Source of the DNA: Sulfurospirillaceae bacterium
GTDB lineage: Bacteria; Campylobacterota; Campylobacteria; Campylobacterales; Sulfurospirillaceae
Direction: 5' to 3'
DNA length: 64,000 nt
NCBI GenBank assembly: GCA_028684065.1
Contig: JAQUGO010000001.1
Span: 124,001 to 188,000 of the forward strand
Shown here in pieces: positions 44,601 to 56,023 of the stretch; the first letter of the stretch is position 1, and each line of letters begins with the position of its first letter. The notes beneath the pieces were generated by a model, which had not been told where the DNA came from, searched no databases, and worked only from the letters and a program-made list of their open reading frames with translations. The translations under genes were made by a program, and so were the position numbers.

Positions 44601-45353
44601 ATGAAAGCGCTTAGGTTCATACTCAGCGGAAAAACGGCATGTTTCAGAAAGCCTGATGTGAATGTATTTGCCTATTTTACGTACAACAACATTCACAAGC
44701 CTGCACTTTTGGGAATGCTTGGGGCTATCATCGGGTTGGGAGGACATAATCAACTGTTTGATAAAAATAGAGGATTGAAAAAAGGCTCTTTAAGTTATGA
44801 CGATGGTTTTCCTGAGTTTTATGAAAAGCTTAAAGAGCTAAAAGTAGCCATAACACCACTTGCATCACATGGCTATTTTAGCAAGAAAATTCAAACGTTC
44901 AATAATAGCGTTGGTTATGCTAGTTTTGAGCAAGGCGGTAATCTTGTCGTTCGTGAGCAGTGGCTTGAAAATCCTGTGTGGCAGATACAGATACTAGATG
45001 ATGGAAGTGACGTTTTTCAAAAAATCAGCGAGTATCTTTTGGGTGGCAAGTCGGTTTTTATCCCTTATCTTGGTAAAAACGACCATCCTGCAAAGATTGA
45101 CGAAGTGAAGATAGTTGAACTTGCGGCACCTTCAGGAAACTACATTGACTCATTATTTATCAAGAATTTTGACAGGCTTTATTTAGCAAAAGAAGATGAA
45201 AGACCTTATCTTTTTCAAGAAATCTCTCCGATGAGGCTTCAAAAAGATCATCACTTTTATGAGTATGAGACTTTGGTATTTACCAATCATGAAGTAACAA
45301 ACTTACCTCATGATGTTTATTTTACTGACGGTAAAAACTATGCTTTTATCTGA
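44601..45353 (+). CDS. cas5: Cas5 subunit (type I-B)
   Basis: 250 residues. The N-terminal KALRFILSGKTACFRKPDVN with the following YNNIHKPALLGMLGAIIGLGG is the classic Cas5 signature. It caps the 5' handle of the crRNA in Cascade. It ends 14 nt inside the beginning of cas3. Confidence 0.92.
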   Translation: MKALRFILSGKTACFRKPDVNVFAYFTYNNIHKPALLGMLGAIIGLGGHNQLFDKNRGLKKGSLSYDDGFPEFYEKLKELKVAITPLASHGYFSKKIQTFNNSVGYASFEQGGNLVVREQWLENPVWQIQILDDGSDVFQKISEYLLGGKSVFIPYLGKNDHPAKIDEVKIVELAAPSGNYIDSLFIKNFDRLYLAKEDERPYLFQEISPMRLQKDHHFYEYETLVFTNHEVTNLPHDVYFTDGKNYAFI

Positions 45354-47709
45354 GTTCAAAATAGATGAGCGCTATCTTGCGCATACGCCATGTGAAACGC
45401 TCATCTCTCATTCAAATCTGACGCTAGAGTATTTTCATAAAATAGTAGCACATAAAAATCTTCATCTTCTCATAGATAATTTACTGCAAAAAATAGACAG
45501 TGAAAATTTTGACTTACTTAAAGAAATGTTTATTAATACAATTTTTCTTCATGATATTGGAAAGACAAATATATATTTTCAAGCAAAAAAGATGAATAAT
45601 GAACATTTTAAAGACTATAAAAATAAAACAAATAGCAGTGAACATTCTAGTTTTTCATCAAAAATGTTTATTGATCATTACATGATAAAAATTAAAATGC
45701 TACCTGATCAAAAGACAAGAGAAAAGTTTAAATTTATACTTTATATATTTTCGTATCATCAAGCAAAGCATCATGGAAATTTGAGTGTTGTTGAAGAATA
45801 TCAAAAAGAAAAGATATATTGGACTTATTTAGATATGTTTGAAATTCCTCATTTTGAATTTTACATCCTCAACAAACTTCTTTTTTCGCTTCTTGTTTCT
45901 AGCGATTATTATGCTACAACCGATTACATGTCAGGTTTAAAAACCGATGACTTTGGAGCATTCTCGAGTTCTAAGAAACAGAAGCTCAATGAGCTTTTTT
46001 CTACCTTTACATGTAAACTTAAAAACGATGATGGAATTAACACATTACGAAGTGAAATGTTTCAAGAAGCAGAGGACAATCTACTTAAAAACTTAGATAA
46101 AAATATCTTTTACCTTGAAGCTCCAACGGGTAGCGGCAAGACTATTACTTCTATCAATTTAGCGCTAAAACTTTTAGAAAACAATGACCATGTCAATAAA
46201 CTTTTTTATATTTTTCCGTTCAATACATTAGTGGAGCAAACTAAAAACGTTTTTGATGGTATATTTAAAAAGGAATTGACGATTGAAATTATCAACTCTA
46301 TAACTCCGATAACTATTGATGAAAAAGACCAAGAAGATGTAGAAAGTAATTACGAAAAATCATATGTCAATCGACTCTTTTTTCATGCTCCTGCCATCAT
46401 CACAACGCATGTAGCATTTTTTGATATTTTATTTGGCACTTCAAAAGAGGACAATTTTCCACTTTGGCAGTTGGCAAACAGCGTCATCATCCTCGATGAA
46501 ATACAAAGTTACAATAACCATCTTTGGTGGTATATGGTGGAGTTTTTTGACAAATATGCGGCGTTACTCAATATGAAAATTATCATTATGTCGGCGACGC
46601 TGCCTAAGTTAGATTATTTTTTGGAAGAAAAAAACAATTTTGTTGCGCTCATCGGCGATAAAAAAAAGAGAGATTTGTTTCAACATAAGCTTTTTAAAGA
46701 CAGGGTCAAAATCAATTTTTTGCTTGATAAAACTGAAAAAATGACGATACCAAGATTGGTCGAAATATTAAAAAAACAACCCAAAGATAAAAAAATACTT
46801 TTTGAGTTTATCAAAAAACAAAGTGCGAGAGAATTTTACAACGCTATCAAAGATGAGTTTAAAAATGTGTACGAACTAAGCGGTGACGATAATAAAGCAT
46901 ACCGCCAATATGTGATCAACAAAAGTAAAACGGAATCTTTAATCATTGTAGCGACACAAGTCATTGAAGCGGGTGTGGATATAGATATGGACATCGGTTT
47001 TAAGGATATTTCAACCATTGACAGTGAAGAGCAGTTTATGGGGCGCATCAATCGTAGTTGTTTAAGAGAAGGCGTGGTTTACTTTTTCGATATGGACGAT
47101 GTTGAAAAAATCTATCGAGGCGATAATCGTTTGGGGATGGACTTAAAAGAGCCAAAATACCAAGATATTTTAAAAAACAAAGAGTTCGATCTGTACTATG
47201 GTGAAGTTTTAGAAAGAATTAAAACCGATAAATCAAAGTTTAAATGTGGTTTGATGACGAGTCATGATTATTTTGACGAAGCCATTAAAAAACTCAATTA
47301 TAAAAAAATCAAAGAAGAGATGACGTTGATCAAAAGCGATACATTTACGCTTTATTTTCCGTTTCAAATTGATCTATCACTTTATAAAAATGTCAAAGAG
47401 TTTAATGGATTAGCTGAAACATTGCTCACGGATGGAAAGTTAGATGGTCAAAAAGTATGGGATGCTTTTATTGCACTCAATGACATTGAGGGTTTTGCAA
47501 AAAAAGAGGTGGCAAAGTCGAGTATTCAAGCACTGATGCAATTTTTTACGTTTAATATTTTGAGATTTAATGATAAATATGTCTTACCTCATTATGATGA
47601 AGAAAAAGGCGGTATTTATCTTGTAAGCAATTATGCAGAATATATTACTGAAGATGGAAAGTTTAATAGAAAAAAATATCTAGGTTTGAAAGACGATATT
47701 TTTCTATGA
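45340..47709 (+). CDS. cas3: Cas3 nuclease-helicase (HD domain fused)
   Basis: About 789 residues from ATG 45340. The HD nuclease is at the N-terminus (IFLHDIGKTN near 65, SEHSSFSS and FSYHQAKHHGN after it). The helicase has Walker A EAPTGSGKT, DEAD-box LDEIQSYN, MSATLP and the C-terminal VIEAGVDIDMD and GRINRS motifs. All catalytic residues I can check are present. It degrades DNA bound by Cascade. The frame is open upstream inside cas5, but the start used gives the usual HD N-terminus. Confidence 0.95.
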   Translation: MLLSEFKIDERYLAHTPCETLISHSNLTLEYFHKIVAHKNLHLLIDNLLQKIDSENFDLLKEMFINTIFLHDIGKTNIYFQAKKMNNEHFKDYKNKTNSSEHSSFSSKMFIDHYMIKIKMLPDQKTREKFKFILYIFSYHQAKHHGNLSVVEEYQKEKIYWTYLDMFEIPHFEFYILNKLLFSLLVSSDYYATTDYMSGLKTDDFGAFSSSKKQKLNELFSTFTCKLKNDDGINTLRSEMFQEAEDNLLKNLDKNIFYLEAPTGSGKTITSINLALKLLENNDHVNKLFYIFPFNTLVEQTKNVFDGIFKKELTIEIINSITPITIDEKDQEDVESNYEKSYVNRLFFHAPAIITTHVAFFDILFGTSKEDNFPLWQLANSVIILDEIQSYNNHLWWYMVEFFDKYAALLNMKIIIMSATLPKLDYFLEEKNNFVALIGDKKKRDLFQHKLFKDRVKINFLLDKTEKMTIPRLVEILKKQPKDKKILFEFIKKQSAREFYNAIKDEFKNVYELSGDDNKAYRQYVINKSKTESLIIVATQVIEAGVDIDMDIGFKDISTIDSEEQFMGRINRSCLREGVVYFFDMDDVEKIYRGDNRLGMDLKEPKYQDILKNKEFDLYYGEVLERIKTDKSKFKCGLMTSHDYFDEAIKKLNYKKIKEEMTLIKSDTFTLYFPFQIDLSLYKNVKEFNGLAETLLTDGKLDGQKVWDAFIALNDIEGFAKKEVAKSSIQALMQFFTFNILRFNDKYVLPHYDEEKGGIYLVSNYAEYITEDGKFNRKKYLGLKDDIFL

Positions 47710-48200
47710 ATAACATTACAGGAACCCTCATAAACTACTATTTCCACTGTAAAACCCAGTGTTGGCTCCACGCCAATCGTCTCAACCTTGAAGACAACAG
47801 CGAAGACGTGCGCATCGGCAAAGTGTTGCATGAAATCAATGAAGAAAAAGCCAAGCAAACTGAGATCAAAATCGACAATGTCAAGATTGATAAAATCACC
47901 AAAGAATACCTTGTGGAACTCAAAAAATCTGACTCAGACCCAGAAGCTGTGAAGTGGCAGGTGTTGCTTTATCTTTATAAGCTCAAACAAAAAGGGATTG
48001 AGCGCAAAGGGAAAATCGAGTACCACGAAAAAAGCACTACGACCAAAAGTGAGATACTAGAGCTTAATGAAGAAAATGAGAGAGAGCTTTTGAGCGTTTT
48101 GGAAGCGATTTCCCAACTCGTAGATACCAACATTCCACCGCCTCCTAAGTTTGAAAACAAATGTAAAAAATGCGCTTATTATGAGTACTGTTTTATATAG
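47706..48200 (+). CDS. cas4: Cas4 spacer-acquisition nuclease
   Basis: 164 residues of the RecB-like Cas4 family. The first cysteine is in HCKTQCWLHANRL, the nuclease aspartate/glutamate region follows in the middle (KGKIEYHE), and the iron-sulfur cysteines close the protein (CKKCAYYEYC). It trims prespacers and helps select the PAM. It overlaps the cas3 stop (ATGA) and lies 8 nt before cas1. Confidence 0.93.
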   Translation: MNNITGTLINYYFHCKTQCWLHANRLNLEDNSEDVRIGKVLHEINEEKAKQTEIKIDNVKIDKITKEYLVELKKSDSDPEAVKWQVLLYLYKLKQKGIERKGKIEYHEKSTTTKSEILELNEENERELLSVLEAISQLVDTNIPPPPKFENKCKKCAYYEYCFI

Positions 48201-48208
48201 AGGTTAAA

Positions 48209-49521
<1,313 letters not shown>

Positions 49522-49685: not shown

Positions 49686-52600
49686 CTCGAACCGACACAA
49701 AGGTTGTATTGAAACAAAAGTAGGTTATTTGATACGGTTGAGGTGCTGTCCTCGAACCGACACAAAGGTTGTATTGAAACTATACCAAGCGTTAAGCTCA
49801 TCTATATCAGTTTGCTCGAACCGACACAAAGGTTGTATTGAAACATTATAAAAAAACTAAGATGCTTATCGATGTTGACTCGAACCGACACAAAGGTTGT
49901 ATTGAAACTCACGTAAAATGCGTAAAGCTTCTAAAGTTGGTTATCTCGAACCGACACAAAGGTTGTATTGAAACCGAACTATTGATGCATTAGTTGGTCT
50001 AATACACTCTCGAACCGACACAAAGGTTGTATTGAAACATTAGTATCTTTACCATCTGCTAAATGTGAGATTACGCTCGAACCGACACAAAGGTTGTATT
50101 GAAACTTAATACCCTTTTACAAAGTAATTAAAGCTTTTTATCTCGAACCGACACAAAGGTTGTATTGAAACGGGTAATTTAGTTGCAAATGATGACGGAA
50201 CGCTATACTCGAACCGACACAAAGGTTGTATTGAAACTACTAGATGATATTTGATCGGCTGTAATAGCTTTACTCGAACCGACACAAAGGTTGTATTGAA
50301 ACAGAGGTGGAGCGCATGATGGTTGGTATGGTCGTTTCTCGAACCGACACAAAGGTTGTATTGAAACCTACCTAAATATGAAGTGGAAAATGAACCTTTT
50401 TTACTCGAACCGACACAAAGGTTGTATTGAAACTCAATTAAGCCTAGTGAACGCTCACGGATTTTAAACTCGAACCGACACAAAGGTTGTATTGAAACTT
50501 AGTATTTGCAACTATGTCAAAATGGATAGTATTCTCGAACCGACACAAAGGTTGTATTGAAACTGCTTCTAAAAGCCGCTATAAGTTGCTTGTTTTTTTC
50601 CTCGAACCGACACAAAGGTTGTATTGAAACTTGACAGCGGCAAAAGTTGCAACAATTGAGTTACTCTCGAACCGACACAAAGGTTGTATTGAAACGTTAC
50701 TGACTTAACATCATCTAAAACTTTCATATTACTAGAACCGACACAAAGGTTGTATTGAAACTTTAGTGTACTTGAACATGACATTGTTAATGCACCACTA
50801 GAACCGACACAAAGGTTGTATTGAAACGATAAGCCGCAACATTTAAGTAAATTGGCAATTTTCTAGAACCGACACAAAGGTTGTATTGAAACAGACAAAC
50901 TTGATGCGATGAAGGAAAAAACACAGTACTAGAACCGACACAAAGGTTGTATTGAAACTTTGTCAAGTCATATGACTTGCTATTGCTTGCTTTCCTAGAA
51001 CCGACACAAAGGTTGTATTGAAACTGTTTTATTTGGCAGCTTTGGAGCTGATAAAGATGCTAGAACCGACACAAAGGTTGTATTGAAACCTTAATGACCA
51101 TAACGGCAAGTTCAGGCTGTAAAACTAGAACCGACACAAAGGTTGTATTGAAACCTTAATGACTTATCGCCTAATAATGCTTGATAAGTCTAGAACCGAC
51201 ACAAAGGTTGTATTGAAACGGCAATACCATAGCCATAGTTTCAGTTTGAACGTGCTAGAACCGACACAAAGGTTGTATTGAAACTGCCCAGCATTATCCA
51301 AGAAAATTAGTTGTCCAAAACTAGAACCGACACAAAGGTTGTATTGAAACGATTGTGCTTATAAAAATAACGTAGTTCGAGCTTACTCGAACCGACACAA
51401 AGGTTGTATTGAAACTGAAACGGGCGTTCCTCATGCTCACGTTTTAATGTACTCGAACCGACACAAAGGTTGTATTGAAACCGGTGGGTTCAATCAAGGC
51501 GGATGTGCCACGGAGAAACTCGAACCGACACAAAGGTTGTATTGAAACTATGCGCTTACATTTACAAGTCTATTAGCTCCCATTTCTCGAACCGACACAA
51601 AGGTTGTATTGAAACTTGTATGAATTTGCCTACTTCTAAACAGAATGATGCTCGAACCGACACAAAGGTTGTATTGAAACTGTAAAATCAAAAATTTGAA
51701 CACATTAAGAAAACTACTCGAACCGACACAAAGGTTGTATTGAAACATAATAAGCAAATTATTAACAAATTTTTGAATTAGACTCGAACCGACACAAAGG
51801 TTGTATTGAAACATGCTTAAAGATGCAAAAGTAGGCTATTTATTCACTCTCGAACCGACACAAAGGTTGTATTGAAACAAAGGTGATCGATGCGTTAAAC
51901 GATACAAAGCGTTACTCGAACCGACACAAAGGTTGTATTGAAACCGTTTGGAGCATTAATTAATGCTACTATTGGACCCTCGAACCGACACAAAGGTTGT
52001 ATTGAAACTCAAAACAGTCTTAATGCAAAACAGGCAAAACAAACTCGAACCGACACAAAGGTTGTATTGAAACAACGATAACCCTGCAATATTCAAAATT
52101 TCATCAAACTCGAACCGACACAAAGGTTGTATTGAAACAGAATTGAGATGAAAACTTTTCCGTTTTAGCTTCAACTCGAACCGACACAAAGGTTGTATTG
52201 AAACTTCCTGGTTGCAGCAGAACAGTACGGATTAATGCCTCGAACCGACACAAAGGTTGTATTGAAACAGCCAAACACAACAAAGAGAACTCGAAACGGC
52301 ACTCTCGAACCGACACAAAGGTTGTATTGAAACCATACTGCCAACTATTTACAACCTTTTATTAATAAACTCGAACCGACACAAAGGTTGTATTGAAACA
52401 GTTACATCAAACGATGCTTTTAACTATTTCTTTTCCTCGAACCGACACAAAGGTTGTATTGAAACTATAAATTTGGTTCTGTATTGCCTTTAAAATTATT
52501 CCTCGAACCGACACAAAGGTTGTATTGAAACTCGTATTGCCTTTGCGATTATTTTCCATGATGTATCTCGAACCGACACAAAGGTTGTATTGAAACGTTA

Positions 52601-53520
52601 AAAGAGCCTCATACACAGGTTGACAAAACTTTCTCGAACCGACACAAAGGTTGTATTGAAACGCATCCTTTACATAGATACTCCTGAAAAATATGGTGGC
52701 TCGAACCGACACAAAGGTTGTATTGAAACCGGGTAACAACATCCGCAAATTGGCGGTATTGTTGCATCTCGAACCGACACAAAGGTTGTATTGAAACTTG
52801 CTTAGAGTTTTGAGTAGTTTAACCTCAAAAGGCCCGAACCGACACAAAGGTTGTATTGAAACATCTCTGGCTGAACCAATGGCTTACCACCTGGCATCAT
52901 ACTCGAACCGACACAAAGGTTGTATTGAAACTAGGGCTATAAACGTCAAGAGAAGAAATTTCTTTTCTCGAACCGACACAAAGGTTGTATTGAAACAAGC
53001 TTCAGCGATTGAAGTATCAATATTTTGTTTAATCTCGAACCGACACAAAGGTTGTATTGAAACAGTACTCCTTTAAGAGTTCATCTGTTTCAAATAAAAC
53101 TCGAACCGACACAAAGGTTGTATTGAAACCATCAACAACCTTGGACGCTTTGCCAACTTTTTGGCTTGAACCGACACAAAGGTTGTATTGAAACGAGGAT
53201 ATTAAAAATATACCTACTGATTTATCTACCTTGAACCGACACAAAGGTTGTATTGAAACAGATGTATTAGTTAAAGCTATAGCTCCCCCGCCTGTCTTGA
53301 ACCGACACAAAGGTTGTATTGAAACATAAAACAACCTTTAAACCTGGCAATTCTCCGCACACTTGAACCGACACAAAGGTTGTATTGAAACTGTAGATAC
53401 TGCATTTTCTTTATCAAAGAAGTATCTTGAACCGACACAAAGGTTGTATTGAAATCAACTTGGCGAGTATAACGACTTAATCGTAGCCGGCTCGAACCGA
53501 CACAAAGGTTGTATTACAAT
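49686..53520 (+). CRISPR. Type I-B CRISPR array, 59 repeats and 58 spacers
   Basis: By hand count the repeat is 30 bp, beginning CTCGAACCGACACAAAGG and ending TTGTATTGAAAC. Spacers are 34-39 bp, mostly 35-36. The first repeat is at 49686-49715. Repeats vary at position 3: 16 copies with CTC, then 10 with CTA (50732-51350), 22 with CTC, one CCC (52833), four CTC, five CTT (53165-53455) and a final CTC. The last two repeats are degenerate at their 3' ends (GAAAT, then TTACAAT), marking the leader-distal end. All open frames across this region are artefacts of the repeats. Confidence 0.98.
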
Positions 53521-53618: not shown

Positions 53619-53635
53619 TTGACATATGTTCATAA
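53619..53635. promoter_or_regulatory. CATATG-centred operator overlapping the TDT-transporter promoter
   Basis: TTGACATATGTTCATAA contains the near-palindrome TGACATATGTTCA, also found at 55563 before the His-rich NifX-like gene. It overlaps a -35 hexamer TTGACA at 53619-53624, followed after 17 nt by TATTAT at 53642-53647. The likely binder is the DUF134 regulator encoded at 54924-55511; this is inferred. Confidence 0.65.
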
Positions 53636-53686
53636 AAATCTTATTATTCTTATCTATTTTAATTATTTTTATTATAAGAGGTTACA

Positions 53687-54655
53687 ATGCAAGAAACACC
53701 AATGTGTGAGAAGAATAGAATTAAATTTTTTCCTATTATGATGTATGCCATCGTCATGGGAATGAGTGGAATAACGATTATGTATCAAAAAGCTGCCCTA
53801 TGGCTTGGTTTTCCTTCTGTCATAGGGATGATTTTAATGGTTGTAACGACTACTATTTTTATTGCTGTCAGTATCCTTTATTGTATTAAGTTTTTAAAAT
53901 ATAGGCCTGTCGTTAAAAAAGAATTTTCACATCCCATAAGAATTAATTTTTTTGCGGCTGTTTCTATTTCTATGTTGATGCTCGCCATTATTTATAAAGA
54001 GCATTATCCAATTATTTCAGCGCTCTTTTGGTATCCTGGTACGGTTCTACATTTTTATTTAACAATGTATACCATCTCTTTTTGGATTAATCACAACCAA
54101 GAGCTTGACCATTCCAATCCTGCATGGTTTATCCCTATTGTCGGAAATGTTATTGTTCCTGTTGCTGGTGTTGGTTTTGCAAGCCAAGGTATTTTAATGT
54201 ACTTTTTTACCTCAGGTATCTTTTTTTGGATTATATTATTTGCTATCTTACTTAATCGTATTATTTTTCACCATCAACTTGTTAGTAAATTTATGCCTAC
54301 AATGTTTATTCTCATTGCACCGCCAGCGGTTGGCTTATTAGCCTATTTTAAAATGTTTGGAGTCATTGACACTTTTGCAATGATGCTTTTTAATCTGGCA
54401 CTCTTCTTTACATTGCTCATTGCTTTTATGTACAAAAATTTTCTCAAAATTAAGTTCTTTATCTCATGGTGGGCATTTGTATTCCCTCTTGCCGCTATGG
54501 CCATTAGTTCCATGCTTATGTATCATCAATCAAAAGATATAACGCTTTATGTGCTCTCTTGTACTATGATTTGTGTTGCGACGATTGTCATTATTATTGT
54601 CATTTATCAGACCTTATGGCATATGCAAAAAGGTGAAATTTGTATACAAGACTAA
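53687..54655 (+). CDS. TDT-family transporter (SLAC1/TehA-like)
   Basis: 322 residues with about ten membrane segments. The beginning FFPIMMYAIVMGMSGITIMYQKAA and the spacing of the helices fit the tellurite-resistance/dicarboxylate transporter family, which are anion channels or exporters. The ion carried here is unknown. AGAGG lies 6 nt before the ATG. Its promoter contains the same CATATG palindrome as the DUF134/NifX-like pair downstream, so the three genes probably form one regulon. The 166 bp between the array and this gene hold only this promoter. Confidence 0.8.
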   Translation: MQETPMCEKNRIKFFPIMMYAIVMGMSGITIMYQKAALWLGFPSVIGMILMVVTTTIFIAVSILYCIKFLKYRPVVKKEFSHPIRINFFAAVSISMLMLAIIYKEHYPIISALFWYPGTVLHFYLTMYTISFWINHNQELDHSNPAWFIPIVGNVIVPVAGVGFASQGILMYFFTSGIFFWIILFAILLNRIIFHHQLVSKFMPTMFILIAPPAVGLLAYFKMFGVIDTFAMMLFNLALFFTLLIAFMYKNFLKIKFFISWWAFVFPLAAMAISSMLMYHQSKDITLYVLSCTMICVATIVIIIVIYQTLWHMQKGEICIQD

Positions 54656-54739
54656 AATCTTAATCATTAAGTAAAAATGCCGTATTTACACTTACTTAAC
54701 CTAAAAAAAGACATATCGTATTCCACTATTTAAGAGATA

Positions 54740-54907
54740 GTGGCGTACTTTAAAGCTCATATTGAAGCACATGCTGTTGCAGAATTTATCGCCGTAGTTA
54801 TTAGACAAAGAAAGGTAGTAATTTGTGAATTGGAAGACTCTTTTATGATCGAATTTCTTGAAGCCATTAAAGAAGAAATGCACACGCTTACGGAAGCTTT
54901 GGTTTAA
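54740..54907 (+). CDS. Possible small protein or gene remnant, 55 residues
   Basis: From GTG 54740 a 55-residue frame reads VAYFKAHIEAHAVAEFIAVV and later CELEDSFMIEFLEAIKEEMH, a plausible amphipathic helical protein. An in-frame stop precedes it at 54731. The start codon lies within an inverted repeat CCACTAT/ATAGTGG (54723-54743), which could hide the ribosome site. I recognise no family; it may be a remnant. The frame on the opposite strand looks less protein-like. Confidence 0.35.
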   Translation: MAYFKAHIEAHAVAEFIAVVIRQRKVVICELEDSFMIEFLEAIKEEMHTLTEALV

Positions 54908-54923
54908 GGGACGGTTGATTAAA

Positions 54924-55511
54924 TTACCATAATACTCGTATATCTTCTTCGCTCATGCTCTCTTTGATCAAGAGTTGGATTCCTTTTGAAGAAAGCATAC
55001 TTTTAAATCCTTCTCCAAGACTATTAGCAATAAAAAGATTGATTCGCTCTTGTGTAAAAAGTGTTGTAAGTACGATAGCTGGCTTTGCATTTTCTAAGAA
55101 AAGTGGATTATTGAGTATCTTGTGGGACTCTATAATGTGATGGTTGAGTGTAAAAATATGTATATATTTACTTTTGGGTAGTGTTAAATAAAAAGGAGCA
55201 TTAGCACTATCACTGCACAAAGCAATTTTATATGGTGCAGAGGATGGCTCTAAGTTTAGTTGCTTTCCACCTAATAATGCTAAGGCTACTTTATGATGGG
55301 CAGATTTGACAATTCTTGCAAGTGTTGGACGAGAAATTTCCATTTTTTGAGCCGCTTCTTCTTGATACATTCCCAATAAATCCATCAGATAAAGTGCTTC
55401 TGTTTCTTCCGATAAAAGGCTAATGATTTCCATATCCCCATTATTTTCAGGAATAAATTTATGACATCTTGGTCTAAAAGAGATATGTCGCTTATTTTTT
55501 TGTCGTGACAT
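54924..55511 (-). CDS. DUF134-family regulator fused to a NifX-like domain
   Basis: About 195 residues from ATG 55511 (AAGG upstream; a TTG further up is less likely). The N-terminal half is a DUF134 helix-turn-helix protein: SFRPRCHKFIP, then TEALYLMDLLGMYQEEAAQKMEISRPTLARIVKSAHHKVALALLGG. The C-terminal half (about 100-195) resembles a NifX/NifB-C domain (KIALCSDSANAPFYLTL, PAIVLTTLFTQERINLFIANSLGEGFKS). It is divergent from the His-rich NifX-like gene, with two operator-like palindromes between them. A ligand-sensing repressor or activator is inferred; the ligand could be a metal or cluster. Confidence 0.8.
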   Translation of the reverse strand: MSRQKNKRHISFRPRCHKFIPENNGDMEIISLLSEETEALYLMDLLGMYQEEAAQKMEISRPTLARIVKSAHHKVALALLGGKQLNLEPSSAPYKIALCSDSANAPFYLTLPKSKYIHIFTLNHHIIESHKILNNPLFLENAKPAIVLTTLFTQERINLFIANSLGEGFKSMLSSKGIQLLIKESMSEEDIRVLW

Positions 55512-55562
55512 GCAAAGCCTTTGCAAATAAAATAACTATAACACAGATAGATTTAAATTTTC

Positions 55563-55577
55563 TTGACATATGTTCAA
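55563..55577. promoter_or_regulatory. CATATG-centred operator, first site before the His-rich NifX-like gene
   Basis: TTGACATATGTTCAA, matching the site at 53619 over 14 bases. Its first six bases are the -35 TTGACA of a promoter with an extended -10 (TGC-TATAGT at 55584-55592, spacer 18 nt). Confidence 0.68.
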
Positions 55578-55591
55578 TAAAAGTGCTATAG

Positions 55592-55611
55592 TTATGGACA
55601 TATGACCATAA
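55592..55611. promoter_or_regulatory. CATATG-centred operator, second site
   Basis: TTATGGACATATGACCATAA is a 20-bp inverted repeat with a single imperfect pair of positions. It lies over the expected transcription start of the downstream gene and directly before its ribosome site AAGGA. Confidence 0.68.
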
Positions 55612-55621
55612 AGGATAAAAA

Positions 55622-56023
55622 ATGATTGCTATGCCAGTTAAAACCGATAAAGAGGAAGCTATCCTTGCTCCATTATTTGGACACGCTAAATATTTTGCAT
55701 TTAGTGATGAAAAAGAAAATGTCACCATTCACCAAAACAGTGCTGATGGCGGTGTTAAAGTTGTACGTTTTCTAGCAGATTTAGGGGTCAAAACAGTTTT
55801 TTTAAATCATATTGGTGAAAAACCTTTTCATTTACTTTTGGAACAAAATATCGATGTTTACTTTGCAGGTAAAGAGCGCATCTCCTTTCATGAGGCTTTA
55901 GAAAAATTTTATCAAGGTGCTTTAGAAAAGGTCACCATTAAAAACTATATGTCACTCTTGGGTGATGATGAACAACACGACCATGAGGATCATCATCACG
56001 GTGGATGTGGTTGCAGTCATTAA
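55622..56023 (+). CDS. NifX-family protein with His-rich C-terminus
   Basis: 133 residues. A single NifX/NifB-C domain (IAMPVKTDKEEAILAPLFGHAKYFAFSD, VRFLADLGVKTVFLNHIGEKPFHLLL) is followed by a metal-binding tail rich in His, Asp and Cys (DDEQHDHEDHHHGGCGCSH). Such stand-alone proteins are widespread in anaerobes and are not necessarily part of nitrogen fixation. It is divergent from the DUF134-NifX regulator and lies behind two operator-like sites. A role in binding or sensing a metal is inferred from the tail. Confidence 0.85.
   Translation: MIAMPVKTDKEEAILAPLFGHAKYFAFSDEKENVTIHQNSADGGVKVVRFLADLGVKTVFLNHIGEKPFHLLLEQNIDVYFAGKERISFHEALEKFYQGALEKVTIKNYMSLLGDDEQHDHEDHHHGGCGCSH

Follow-up and report, generated by a model that had tools for sequence, protein, structure and literature searches.

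A CATATG-centred palindrome is the likely operator of DUF134 regulators and suggests a redox-responsive NifX-SLAC1 regulon in a Sulfurospirillaceae bacterium

A 64,000-nucleotide stretch of a Sulfurospirillaceae genome (contig JAQUGO010000001.1, positions 124,001 to 188,000, here called the window) contains a gene for a DUF134 protein between two neighbors on the opposite strand, one encoding a SLAC1/TDT-family protein and the other a His-rich NifX-family protein. A near-palindrome centred on CATATG recurs in front of these genes. The locus raises the question of which protein recognizes the palindrome, what effect this has on transcription and which signal is sensed. The original prediction saw a metal-responsive regulon in which the DUF134 protein was the sensor.

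Results

The genes and sites of the locus are listed in Table 1. Among SLAC1/TehA/Ssu1 (TDT) proteins, P0001 is a member of PF03595 (165.4 bits, gathering cut-off 27.9) but falls under the NCBIfam cut-offs of both TehA (NF008032; 143 bits, cut-off 342) and tdt (TIGR00816; 165.9 bits, cut-off 237). The frame downstream of it gave a translated match (E ~2e-21) to the intact DUF6858 of relatives (PF21651) and is, judging by this match, what is left of the SLAC1-DUF6858 pair known from relatives. P0003, which has a His-rich tail ending in CGCSH, scored 47.7 bits against PF02579 (gathering cut-off 26.3) and 22.8 bits against MrpORP (NF041136), the latter over the NifX part only and below the equivalog cut-off; a protein of that family would reach 450 bits and also possess a P-loop NTPase domain. 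The P0003 gene and the regulator gene are divergent, with operator B between them, and homologues of P0003 adjoin the regulator in many loci of relatives. For the regulator, the ATG at 55511 (MSRQKN...) is a better start than the upstream TTG.

Table 1. Features of the locus (positions in the window)
Feature	Position	Strand	Remark
Operator A, TTGACATATGTTCA	53619..53632	+	contains -35 of SLAC1 promoter
-10 TATTAT of SLAC1 promoter	53642-53647	+	17-bp spacer
SLAC1/TDT-family anion channel or exporter, P0001, 322 aa, predicted target	53687..54655	+	PF03595
Decayed DUF6858 gene	54674..54908	+	in-frame stop, ~38 codons missing
DUF134-NifX regulator, 195 aa, predicted autoregulated repressor	54924..55511	-	PF02001
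Operator B, TTGACATATGTTCA	55563..55576	+	contains -35 of NifX-His promoter
-10 TATAGT of NifX-His gene	55587..55592	+	between operators B and C
Operator C, TTATGGACATATGACCATAA	55592..55611	+	over predicted +1; centre 32 bp from that of operator B
NifX-family (Nitro_FeMo-Co) protein, P0003, 133 aa, predicted target	55622..56023	+	PF02579

The sites were found exactly where they had been described, with the near-palindrome starting at 53619 and 55563 and the related palindrome TTATGGACATATGACCATAA at 55592, 32 bp beyond operator B. The 14-mer TTGACATATGTTCA consists of the 13-mer TGACATATGTTCA (53620-53632 and 55564-55576) and a preceding T. In the whole 2.67-Mb genome, the 13-mer has two exact copies, both at this locus, against 0.19 expected by base composition (0.06 for the 14-mer). 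Read on the minus strand, operator B is TGAACATATGTCAA and lies upstream of the regulator gene. When three mismatches were allowed across the window, the motif count stood at chance level (31 found, 33 expected), and the case is consequently built on the existence of the exact copies, on where they lie and on their conservation. One-mismatch copies elsewhere in the genome were rejected as regulon members, five of them being located in open reading frames (ORFs) and one between converging genes.

The regulator had been described as a DUF134 helix-turn-helix joined to a NifX-like domain, and profile matches, hhalign and the predicted fold all bear this out. Its N-terminal half (residues 2-87) clearly belongs to the DUF134/UPF0251 proteins, scoring 60.7 bits against PF02001 (cut-off 27), but it stays at 53.6 bits against PRK04217, the NCBIfam equivalog of the short DUF134 proteins (cut-off 115); here, this half is fused to a NifX-fold domain. 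The C-terminal half gave no Pfam match to PF02579 at E 0.1 and a weak match to MrpORP; however, a profile search matched it to TM1816, MTH1175 and PH0822 (1o13 at E 5.8e-6), and an hhalign profile-profile comparison with the NifX family of the target protein yielded 92%. An AlphaFold2 model of the regulator (pLDDT of 87) retrieved PH0822, NifX (in the NifEN-NifX complex), NafY and ORP in Foldseek with a probability of 1.0. On the model and the profiles, the C-terminus is thus predicted to adopt the NifX/ORP fold, which MrpORP, ORP, NifX and NafY share with both the regulator and the target protein.

The regulator differs from these proteins in being a putative DNA-binding fusion without conserved cysteines. 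The first alignment comprised 24 full-length relatives, after which public genomes were scanned; named relatives belong mostly to Sulfurospirillum and to other Campylobacterota. In the 41-member alignment (A2), no Cys or His was invariant, the best being Cys99 in 25 of the 41 sequences. In MrpORP, the NifX-like domain carries a [3Fe-4S] cluster, the binding of which was credited to three conserved cysteines (PMC6345978). These three ligands are not conserved in the regulator, so that any cluster held there would be bound differently, and a Cys-ligated Fe-S sensor of the IscR, NsrR or FNR type is unsupported.

Conservation of the palindrome in relatives, set beforehand as a check, was borne out. 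Wherever 60 bp or more of sequence was available upstream of a homologous regulator gene (46 genes), a CATATG-centred site (the box) was present within 250 bp upstream. The strict 14-mer with at most one mismatch was present in 41 of these 46 promoters, whereas its frequency in the remainder of these loci predicts 0.11. Among 397 Campylobacterota genomes, 73 encode DUF134 and 48 contain TTGACATATGTTCA; DUF134 is encoded in 46 of these 48 genomes (p = 1.7e-38, a value in which kinship of the genomes overstates their independence), and 49 of the 61 TTGACATATGTTCA sites lie less than 0.7 kb from a DUF134 gene. In other phyla, the fuller palindrome TTATGARCATATGYTCATAA (at least 17 of 20 positions matching) was located upstream of 24 of 32 DUF134 genes, with 0.13 expected. 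This palindrome is rare genome-wide in 30 genomes, and the reversed control was nearly empty. The variant TTAACATATGTTCA was discarded as background (p = 0.59). Short DUF134 proteins elsewhere have the same type of operator upstream. It is therefore very probable, on sequence grounds, that the CATATG-centred palindrome is the family-wide operator of DUF134 proteins, a likely DNA switch site conserved across phyla. That some other transcription factor binds the box, with DUF134 as a mere neighbor or target, is very improbable, given that box and DUF134 co-occur in the 397-genome survey and across phyla despite differing neighbors, that sites are nearly absent from genomes without DUF134, and that the helix-turn-helix is conserved between the short and fused forms, as is the core of the box.

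A full-text literature search, which covered few subscription journals, returned neither a published function of DUF134/UPF0251 nor a match to the exact motif string; regulon reconstructions may exist. Some Sulfurospirillum genomes encode a second, shorter DUF134 paralogue (162 to 170 aa) with the same box upstream (L162, 5257-5348). A full-length regulator together with a perfect TGAACATATGTTCA was also found on contigs binned as Turneriella and Caldithrix metagenome-assembled genomes (MAGs) (L082 and L086), which may reflect misbinning or horizontal transfer.

The position of the sites within the promoters bears on the mode of action. As had been anticipated, the sites overlap the promoters of the TDT and the His-rich NifX-like genes: both exact copies of TTGACATATGTTCA provide the -35 hexamer TTGACA, the -10 hexamer follows 17 to 18 bp further on, and operator C begins at the end of the TATAGT hexamer and spans the predicted start point. 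This geometry recurs among relatives, the distance from the centre of the box to the -10 of the divergent gene being 16 to 17 nt in 40 of 46 regulator loci and paired boxes lying 30 to 32 bp apart in 30 of them. At further targets, namely L158, aceE and the DUF134 promoter of Hydrogenedens (L112), the box directly abuts the -10 and covers +1. Because the box holds the -35 of the target at a fixed spacing or covers its start point, repression is the best reading, and the regulator probably acts as a repressor. The operator is found in the regulator's own promoter as well as over the -35 or +1 of the targets, the geometry of an autoregulated one-component repressor. Activation would fit some loci in which the centre of the box falls at about -41 relative to the start of the regulator itself and 29 nt from its -10, a common activator position. 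It is nevertheless improbable: the -35 hexamers of the target promoters match the consensus and form part of the box, second boxes cover +1, and the distance from the box to the regulator's own -10 varies widely among loci.

Genes predicted to be controlled by the box in relatives were assigned by neighbor clustering and Pfam. NifX-family genes were among them, both near and away from DUF134, and SLAC1 (with DUF6858) had a box within 260 bp in 8 of 14 SLAC1 loci, some relatives' SLAC1 genes being boxless; the view of SLAC1/TDT and His-rich NifX-family genes as targets under a common operator is thereby supported. The cydAB genes, with a preceding DUF4492 gene, were boxed in 9 of 14 cydA loci and additionally in L228. 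Sites away from DUF134 genes in DUF134-bearing genomes were located at porCDA (two genomes), at a NifJ-type PFOR gene (one genome) and at cydA, as well as at the aceE and cation-efflux genes described next. The aceE gene, divergent from lplA/lipA, was boxed in five genomes, all of one genus; it was rejected as a general Arcobacteraceae target since other genera of the family have no box there. In a Hydrogenedens MAG (L112, 6230-6432), aceE, encoding pyruvate dehydrogenase E1, diverges from DUF134 with a perfect TTATGAACATATGTTCATAA between the two genes. Cation-efflux (CDF) genes were boxed in two genomes, both from a single family of Campylobacterota (L160, 4746; L161, 5016). In other phyla, DUF134 often lies beside NifX-family genes, genes for small Gly-rich proteins and ORP-cluster-like ParA/ferredoxin ATPases, and a Chlorobium OsmC gene has a weaker copy of the palindrome.

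Two families without Pfam matches, of about 185 aa (L075, 6322-6879) and about 68 aa (L073, 6288-6494), are under the box and divergent from the regulator. Sites in L155, L225 and L226 were set aside because they lie inside ORFs.

In the genome studied here, no CATATG was present in the cydAB stretch examined. Since the one-mismatch sites elsewhere are outside promoters and the genome's own cydAB is boxless, the regulon in this lineage seems to consist of two transcription units and the regulator alone.

Discussion

Taken together, we favor with moderate confidence an explanation in which an autoregulated DUF134-NifX repressor senses a redox-labile cofactor and releases its promoters in response. 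As a dimer, the DUF134 helix-turn-helix would bind the CATATG-centred palindrome, which reads TTATGARCATATGYTCATAA in full and TTGACATATGTTCA at sites sharing bases with a -35 box. By sitting on the -35 and, via a second site 30 to 32 bp further on, on the start point, the bound repressor would block near-consensus promoters. The NifX-fold domain would sense that a redox-labile metal-sulfur cofactor has changed in state or in supply, most likely through oxygen or another oxidant, and the repressor would then leave the DNA. Derepression would here turn on the SLAC1 channel and the NifX-family protein with the His-rich tail; in relatives, it would turn on cytochrome bd oxidase, POR/PFOR, pyruvate dehydrogenase or further proteins of the NifX family. 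Our guess is that the SLAC1 protein moves an anion that is made or needed under the stress.

The nature of the signal is the less secure part of this explanation, and we lean only slightly toward oxygen, redox or Fe-S stress. Such a signal is preferred to a metal because the boxed genes of relatives are mostly of the NifX/ORP type or encode cytochrome bd, POR/PFOR and pyruvate dehydrogenase E1. The POR of Campylobacterota is oxygen sensitive (PMC6682613). The lack of an invariant Cys or His in the regulator, the boxless cydAB of this genome, the boxless SLAC1 genes of some relatives and the restriction of the aceE target to one genus speak against our explanation. Moreover, with the oxygen-sensitive POR and the oxygen-tolerant pyruvate dehydrogenase under one repressor, the system is not a simple oxygen switch.

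The alternative that survives best, although we consider it unlikely, is the metal-responsive regulon of the original prediction, in which the NifX domain would bind a metal ion or cluster and derepression would supply a His-rich binder and an exporter. The His/Cys tail of the target protein, the boxed CDF genes and the metal clusters carried by NifX-family proteins (PMC6345978) are in line with it. However, cydAB and the pyruvate-oxidizing enzymes are the commonest targets outside the NifX family, boxed CDF genes are confined to two genomes of one family, and metal-ligand residues are not conserved in the regulator. In addition, members of the SLAC1 family carry anions rather than metal cations. 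The label of metal responsiveness is therefore unsupported in its original form.

Nitrosative stress is a distinctly unlikely signal. Here, NO would alter the cofactor of the NifX domain, and the proteins induced would be a TehA-like channel and a cytochrome bd that resists NO. Cytochrome bd is indeed NO tolerant. Furthermore, NsrR of Escherichia coli has been proposed to target tehA, although the data conflict (PMC5320621), and hemerythrin and DUF2249 genes adjoin the regulator in three loci. Those genes point away from the box, however, and were rejected as targets, and none of the sites examined preceded a gene for NO detoxification, for instance hcp. In Sulfurospirillum multivorans, Hcp is strongly induced by nitrate (PMC4585668).

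A metabolite sensor, whose NifX domain would bind pyruvate or a related acid and control pyruvate oxidation and the terminal oxidase, is quite improbable. The set of aceE, lplA/lipA, POR and cydAB does resemble that of E. coli PdhR, whose regulon includes pyruvate dehydrogenase and a terminal oxidase, and the regulator lacks conserved cluster ligands. Nevertheless, this likeness in target logic holds for one Arcobacteraceae genus, PdhR belongs to another protein family with another operator, and the NifX/ORP-type genes, which are core targets of the DUF134 box, would be left unexplained along with SLAC1 and CDF; known NifX folds bind clusters, not acids.

The redox-responsive repressor that we prefer would work much like NsrR and IscR, small autoregulated Fe-S repressors of redox and Fe-S stress genes (with tehA disputed for NsrR), but its domains and operator are unrelated to theirs and their Cys ligands are not conserved in it. 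The orp operons of Desulfovibrio vulgaris were reported to be controlled by sigma54 and IHF (PMC3897727), which differs from the DUF134-box regulon. If correct, our analysis assigns a concrete job to a widespread domain of hitherto unknown function, together with a predicted binding site that can be used in many phyla. It would also connect NifX/ORP-type proteins, the physiological role of which is poorly understood, with the way in which oxygen respiration and the oxidation of pyruvate are controlled. For microaerophiles, where knowledge of this control is incomplete, it would provide a candidate redox regulator. More speculatively, DUF134 proteins may be phylum-spanning repressors that share a single conserved palindrome, with a NifX-fold protein, either fused or co-encoded, as the sensor. 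This sensor would hold a labile metal-sulfide cluster that lacks Cys ligands, and in Campylobacterota the system would be an oxygen, redox or Fe-S switch of respiration and pyruvate oxidation.

Two further features of the window were recorded. A long CRISPR array with CTCGAACCGACACAAAGGTTGTATTGAAAC repeats (approximately 50000-53520) stops about 100 bp before operator A and is adjoined by Cas3-, Cas4- and Cas1-like genes at 45310-49521. Three additional Nitro_FeMo-Co matches, at approximately 13264, 28586 and 35218, one of them in a 485-aa frame, hint that the window includes a region of nif genes.
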